In this document: one piece after another, positions 3,640-4,285 of the stretch | Layout of the letters: every line of letters begins with the position of its first letter | Position numbering within the stretch: position 1 is the stretch's first letter | DNA from: Sulfolobus sp. S-194 | Lineage (GTDB): Archaea > Thermoproteota > Thermoprotei_A > Sulfolobales > Sulfolobaceae | Assembly: GCF_012222305.1 (NCBI RefSeq) | Contig: NZ_CP035730.1 | Location: 992,001-1,056,000 of the forward strand | DNA length: 64,000 bases | Direction: 5' to 3' | Translations under genes and position numbers: made by a program | Notes under the pieces: model-generated | The model's input: only the letters and a program-made list of their open reading frames with translations | Told to the model about the DNA's origin: nothing | Databases searched by the model: none

Positions 3640-3698
3640 TCATTAATTTAAACTGTGACAATAAAGAAGAATAATAAACCTAGCCCCTTTTAGGAAGA

Positions 3699-3887
3699 GT
3701 GTGTCCAACTATATTGTTAGTTTAATATTTATCATATAAATTAAAGAAAATCCTTTCAATTTAACGTAGGATTTTATAAAAAATTTTGTATTAATAAATA
3801 ATTTTTTGTTAGAAAAGACACTAACAAGATGAGACTATCTAGATTTTTTAACTAAATCTGAAACAAATGAAATTGTTGGACACACAG
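3699..3887. mobile_element. MITE-like non-autonomous element, about 189 bp
   Basis: Perfect 11-bp terminal inverted repeats are present: GTGTGTCCAAC at 3699-3709 and GTTGGACACAC at 3875-3885. The element is flanked by a 10-bp direct repeat TTTAGGAAGA (3689-3698 and 3888-3897), as expected for a target-site duplication. A second inverted pair, TTGTTAGT (3714-3721) and ACTAACAA (3820-3827), lies inside. There is no coding capacity. The right end has two extra bases (AG) before the direct repeat. The parent transposase is not in the window. Confidence 0.75.
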
Positions 3888-4157
3888 TTTAGGAAGATCC
3901 AAACTCTGATTATCAAAAATAATTTTTATCTATTAGTGATTTATGAGTTTTTATACAATTAGACAACTCAGTTTATAATAATTTTTAGATCTTCTCATAT
4001 CTTAATTAGATCTTTAAAGGAGTTATAATATTAGAAAATAAAAGTGATATATAGAATAAAACACAGTTTTATTCATATTAATTATTCAATATATTATTCT
4101 TAAATAATGAGTAAAATAAATTCTTTTAGCTATATGGGGAAAAAGTTAAGTAAATAT

Positions 4158-4285
4158 GATAGTGTCATCATTTGTATATAAATTCATTAGTGGAGTTAAT
4201 CTCTAGGAAGAGAAGATACTAAGATAAAGTTATTGTATACCTTATTTTAATATAGAAATATAAATAGCTTAGTGACGACACTATG
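4158..4285. mobile_element. MITE-like non-autonomous element, about 128 bp
   Basis: The ends GATAGTGTCATCA (4158-4170) and TGACGACACTATG (4273-4285) are inverted repeats matching at 11 of 13 positions. They are flanked by a 9-bp direct repeat AGTAAATAT (4149-4157 and 4286-4294). The interior is AT-rich without an ORF. Sequence resembling its right end recurs at 4924-4956. The repeats differ from those of the 189-bp element, so this is a second family. Confidence 0.75.

Follow-up and report, generated by a model that had tools for sequence, protein, structure and literature searches.

A 191-bp IS6-type MITE in Sulfolobus sp. S-194, its likely partner insertion sequences and the occurrence of IS1-type elements on IS6-type ends

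The window analysed here, a 64-kb stretch of Sulfolobus sp. S-194 DNA (positions 992001-1056000 of a genome of 2,789,526 bp in one contig, which was searched for further copies), contains a 191-bp miniature inverted-repeat transposable element (MITE) at 3697-3887. We consider it very probable that an archaeal IS6-type DDE transposase of the ISC774/ISSte1 group, TCCAAC subtype, inserted this MITE in trans into TTTAGGAA. Such a transposase would recognise the tips GAGTGTGTCCAAC / CTGTGTGTCCAAC, its insertion into TTTAGGAA would duplicate the target, and the MITE itself may derive from an insertion sequence (IS) of this kind by retaining little beyond its ends. The term IS6-type serves as a label only, because the archaeal IS6-type ISs have been argued to deserve a family of their own (PMC6807381). 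The element and its target site duplications (TSDs) are arranged as follows.

3689-3696, no strand: left copy of the 8-bp TSD, TTTAGGAA, identical to 3888-3895 at 8/8 positions with zero offset
3697-3887, plus strand: IS6-type MITE, 191 bp, GAGTGTGTCCAAC...GTTGGACACACAG, with the same boundaries in copies elsewhere in the genome
3697-3709, plus strand: left tip GAGTGTGTCCAAC, including the perfect 11-bp terminal inverted repeat (TIR) at 3699-3709
3875-3887, minus strand: right tip GTTGGACACACAG, including the perfect 11-bp TIR at 3875-3885
3888-3895, no strand: right copy of the 8-bp TSD, TTTAGGAA

Read directly, the sequence runs from TTTAGGAAGA (3689-3698) and GTGTGTCCAAC (3699-3709) to GTTGGACACAC (3875-3885), AG (3886-3887) and a second TTTAGGAAGA (3888-3897). 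An earlier note on this DNA had described a MITE-like element of 189 bp with perfect 11-bp terminal repeats and 10-bp direct repeats; the terminal repeats are indeed present, as are the MITE and the 10-bp TTTAGGAAGA on both of its sides, while the size had to be corrected to 191 bp and the duplication to 8 bp. A 10-bp duplication was ruled out by multi-copy alignment: the extra GA of the left repeat is part of the MITE, and that of the right repeat is flanking DNA matching by chance. Since the well-preserved copies start with GAGTGTGTCCAAC and end with GTTGGACACACAG or a near variant, the MITE spans 3697-3887. Its 33-nt terminal arms are complementary at the level of 79%, and in agreement with the lack of coding capacity claimed earlier all overlapping open reading frames are short chance frames of at most 31 amino acids. 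That the element is not a product of chance follows from the count of GTGTGTCCAAC in the genome (15, against 0 for the reversed control) and from the recurrence of the whole element at dispersed sites. Thus, a short sequence devoid of a transposase gene, TIRs with a TSD, and multiple dispersed copies were all found, as expected of a MITE.

The search for further copies proposed in the earlier note yielded about 13 dispersed copies in the genome. Six of these, the window copy included, lie at mutually unrelated flanks and are 94-100% identical to the window copy; by alignment, identity was 100% for L002, 99.5% for L003, 97.4% for L004, 96.9% for L005 and 93.7% for L006, and L007-L009 showed 80-86%. 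Duplications matching at 8/8 positions with zero offset were seen for the window copy (TTTAGGAA), L004 (GTTTCAGT), L005 (GTAAAGCT) and L068 (TAATAAGG), the last being a copy from a genome of another genus (G014). The flanks of L003, TTGTAGTA/TTGTAGTG, matched at 7/8 positions, likewise with zero offset. For L002 and L006 no duplication was found, and an IS1-type MITE is inserted at one tip of each.

The 64-kb window contains no IS6-type transposase, in line with the earlier proposal of mobilisation by a transposase encoded outside it, and ISs with GTGTGTCCAAC ends, which that proposal called for, exist in the same genome. Three places, namely L122, L048/L123 and L046, join MITE-like ends with IS6-type transposase sequence assigned to the ISC774 model. 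L122 (1910937-1911660), whose ends are of the GTGTGTGTCCAAC type, carries the duplicated 8-mer AATATTCC at its flanks. Against NF033588, the ISC774 model of the IS6 transposase family (cut-off 200), its transposase scored 275 bits and the L048 fragment 166 bits. The transposase of a same-ended IS in NF033588, together with the 8-bp TSD, points to a relation of the MITE with the ISC774/ISSte1 group. ISSte1 of plasmid pTC1 has the inverted repeat GTGTGTGTCCAACAAT and 8-bp direct repeats (PMC4390865), so that the group shares with the MITE the terminal GTGTGTCCAAC, the length of the TSD and a host among the Sulfolobaceae (PMC4390865); unlike these ISs, the MITE measures 191 bp, lacks a transposase gene and has the ends alone in common with them. 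All 22 bp of positions 3865-3886 are shared without mismatch with the right end of the IS remnant L046, where the BLAST match extends over 22-25 bp. Beyond the outermost 13 bp on the left and about 22 bp on the right, the MITE showed no significant similarity to any IS, and a comparison of its interior with IS interiors stayed below significance. We infer that a TCCAAC-type transposase moved the MITE and that the MITE arose from an IS of that type.

The partner transposases with matching ends in this genome all appear damaged. L122, the sole full-length TCCAAC-type IS in the genome, was dropped as an intact transposase source after alignment with the copy on plasmid pARN4, relative to which 10 bp are missing in the start region, putting the ATG out of frame; the transposase genes of L048 and L046 have deletions or stops or are truncated. 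Current mobility of the MITE is therefore unproven, and there is close to an even chance that the MITE is a fossil in this strain, with no able transposase left and with near-identical copies that predate the decay of the partner. The damage to three of three TCCAAC-type IS copies speaks for this, whereas the 100% and 99.5% identity of two other copies to the window copy implies that amplification was recent. Moreover, an alternative start codon might serve the 205-aa open frame that L122 keeps, and trans action by the second IS6-type subtype described below is conceivable. A fossil state is compatible with movement and origin by way of a TCCAAC-type IS, as proposed here. Open frames of 231 amino acids between TCCAAC ends are present in G023, and both IS6-type subtypes occur among family-level relatives, TCCAAC ends being found in G001, G023 and G042. 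The pARN4 element itself (NC_006424.1, 14089-14819) is an unannotated TCCAAC-type IS6 element with 78% identity to L122 and a frame broken late in the gene.

The second subtype in the genome has GAGTGTGGACAAC ends and is represented by L124 and L126, and it is an improbable mover of the MITE. L124 combines a 240-aa open frame with perfect 13-bp tips that agree with those of the MITE at 11/13 positions, and related MITE ends in G003 and G045 bear a GGACAAC tip; these points favour the second subtype. All well-preserved copies in the genome, however, carry TCC and not GGA at the diagnostic positions, and for this reason the MITE tips are matched to the TCCAAC subtype.

Relatives of the MITE occur in other genera, in G014 (85% and 70% BLAST identity) and G019, with fragments elsewhere; no match was obtained in the plasmid and phage collections or among viral contigs. 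The genes flanking the insertion encode a TPP-enzyme and a Thermoprotei-type ribonuclease HI, and in G002, of the same genus, their orthologs (88% and 93% amino acid identity) are adjacent and the element is absent, the spacing being 206 bp as compared to 971 bp here. The comparison with an empty site suggested in the earlier note could thus be made for the gene pair but not for the 8-mer, as the intergenic region of G002 is mostly too diverged to align and the exact empty TTTAGGAA is not recoverable there. At the threshold used, the DNA flanking the MITE, the second repeat excepted, had no alignment in same-genus genomes. The absence from G002 and the dispersed copies, each with its own TSD, also bear on the reading of the region as conserved, non-transposing DNA with a regulatory role or encoding a structured RNA, which, despite a strong predicted fold (z = -5.4) that the TIRs alone could yield, is already contradicted by the target duplications, found no match in Rfam and is extremely improbable.

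With regard to known elements, the MITE resembles SM1-SM4 and SMN1 of Sulfolobus, which are likewise short, non-autonomous and moved in trans in Sulfolobales. SMN1 depends on ISC1733 and SM3A on ISC1058 (PMC3718332); hence those with a named partner use other ISs than the window MITE, a distinction drawn from published descriptions. MITEBth2 and MITEHarch3 are filed under IS6 in ISfinder (PMC6807381) and are non-autonomous IS6 elements like the one described here, but belong to other organisms, judging by their names. The window element is a real IS6-type MITE, ordinary in kind and, as far as could be checked, undescribed, and it adds to the known mobile elements of Sulfolobales an IS6-type MITE family with defined boundaries and a likely partner.

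A second repeat lies downstream of the first MITE.

4158-4285: repeat, about 127 bp, bounded by inverted (G)ATAGTGTCGTC-type ends, 270 bp downstream of the first MITE

At least 35 further copies of this repeat are present in the genome, and it creates duplications of 8-9 bp, that of the window copy being the 9-bp AGTAAATAT. Its full-length relatives of 793-794 bp carry an open frame of 247-259 amino acids that scored 110.8 bits against the IS1 family model NF033558 (cut-off 100), and the repeat is a MITE belonging to an IS1-family IS. At L115 the 9 bp GACACACTC, the tip of the IS6-type MITE itself, are duplicated on both sides of the IS1-type MITE, and therefore the latter inserted into the former; insertion of the IS6-type MITE beside the 127-bp repeat was ruled out by this duplication, which identifies the 127-bp element as the newcomer. 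In 18 of the 37 copies examined, at least one flank reads GAGTGTG (at most one mismatch) in an almost fixed register, and the match was found at 25/70 flanks as compared to 0.5% of random positions. The pattern GAGTGTGKMNATAGTGTCGTC (at most two mismatches) was detected in 15 of 31 family genomes with 138 occurrences, against 2 for the reversed control. These data suggest that IS1-type elements target IS6-type ends, about half of the 37 copies sitting on the terminal 9 bp in an almost fixed register.

Inverted IS6-type tips, GAGTGTGKM, bound IS1-type elements on both sides at L096 and L103 in the same genome and, at full IS length, at L193 (G044) and L184 (G011), with TATTATTA on both flanks of L193. 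This suggests possible hybrid mobile units, which may have arisen by recombination between two insertions or by movement as a unit. More generally, it seems somewhat likely that IS1-family elements and their MITEs in Sulfolobaceae have a target preference for exactly the outermost 9 bp of an IS6-type element or of a MITE like that in the window, leaving one IS6-type end complete and an orphan 9-bp tip opposite. Repeated insertions would then have given rise to hybrid units in which inverted IS6-type tips enclose an IS1-type core, units that are perhaps movable by IS6-type transposases. The literature searched, which covered few subscription papers, contained no report of IS1-type targeting of IS6-type ends. 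IS4321/IS5075 and IS231A, whose targets are the ends of Tn3-family transposons, are comparable in kind in their use of the termini of another transposon family. Register-specific use of IS6-type ends by the IS1 family offers a testable case of such cross-family terminus targeting. Several 127-bp copies in the genome (L092, L100, L106, L108 and L121) are flanked by a common CCTATATAGGAG-like motif, perhaps another preferred target. Elsewhere in the window, an IS607 family transposase gene is located at 856-1461 on the minus strand (NF033518, 229 bits, cut-off 110).
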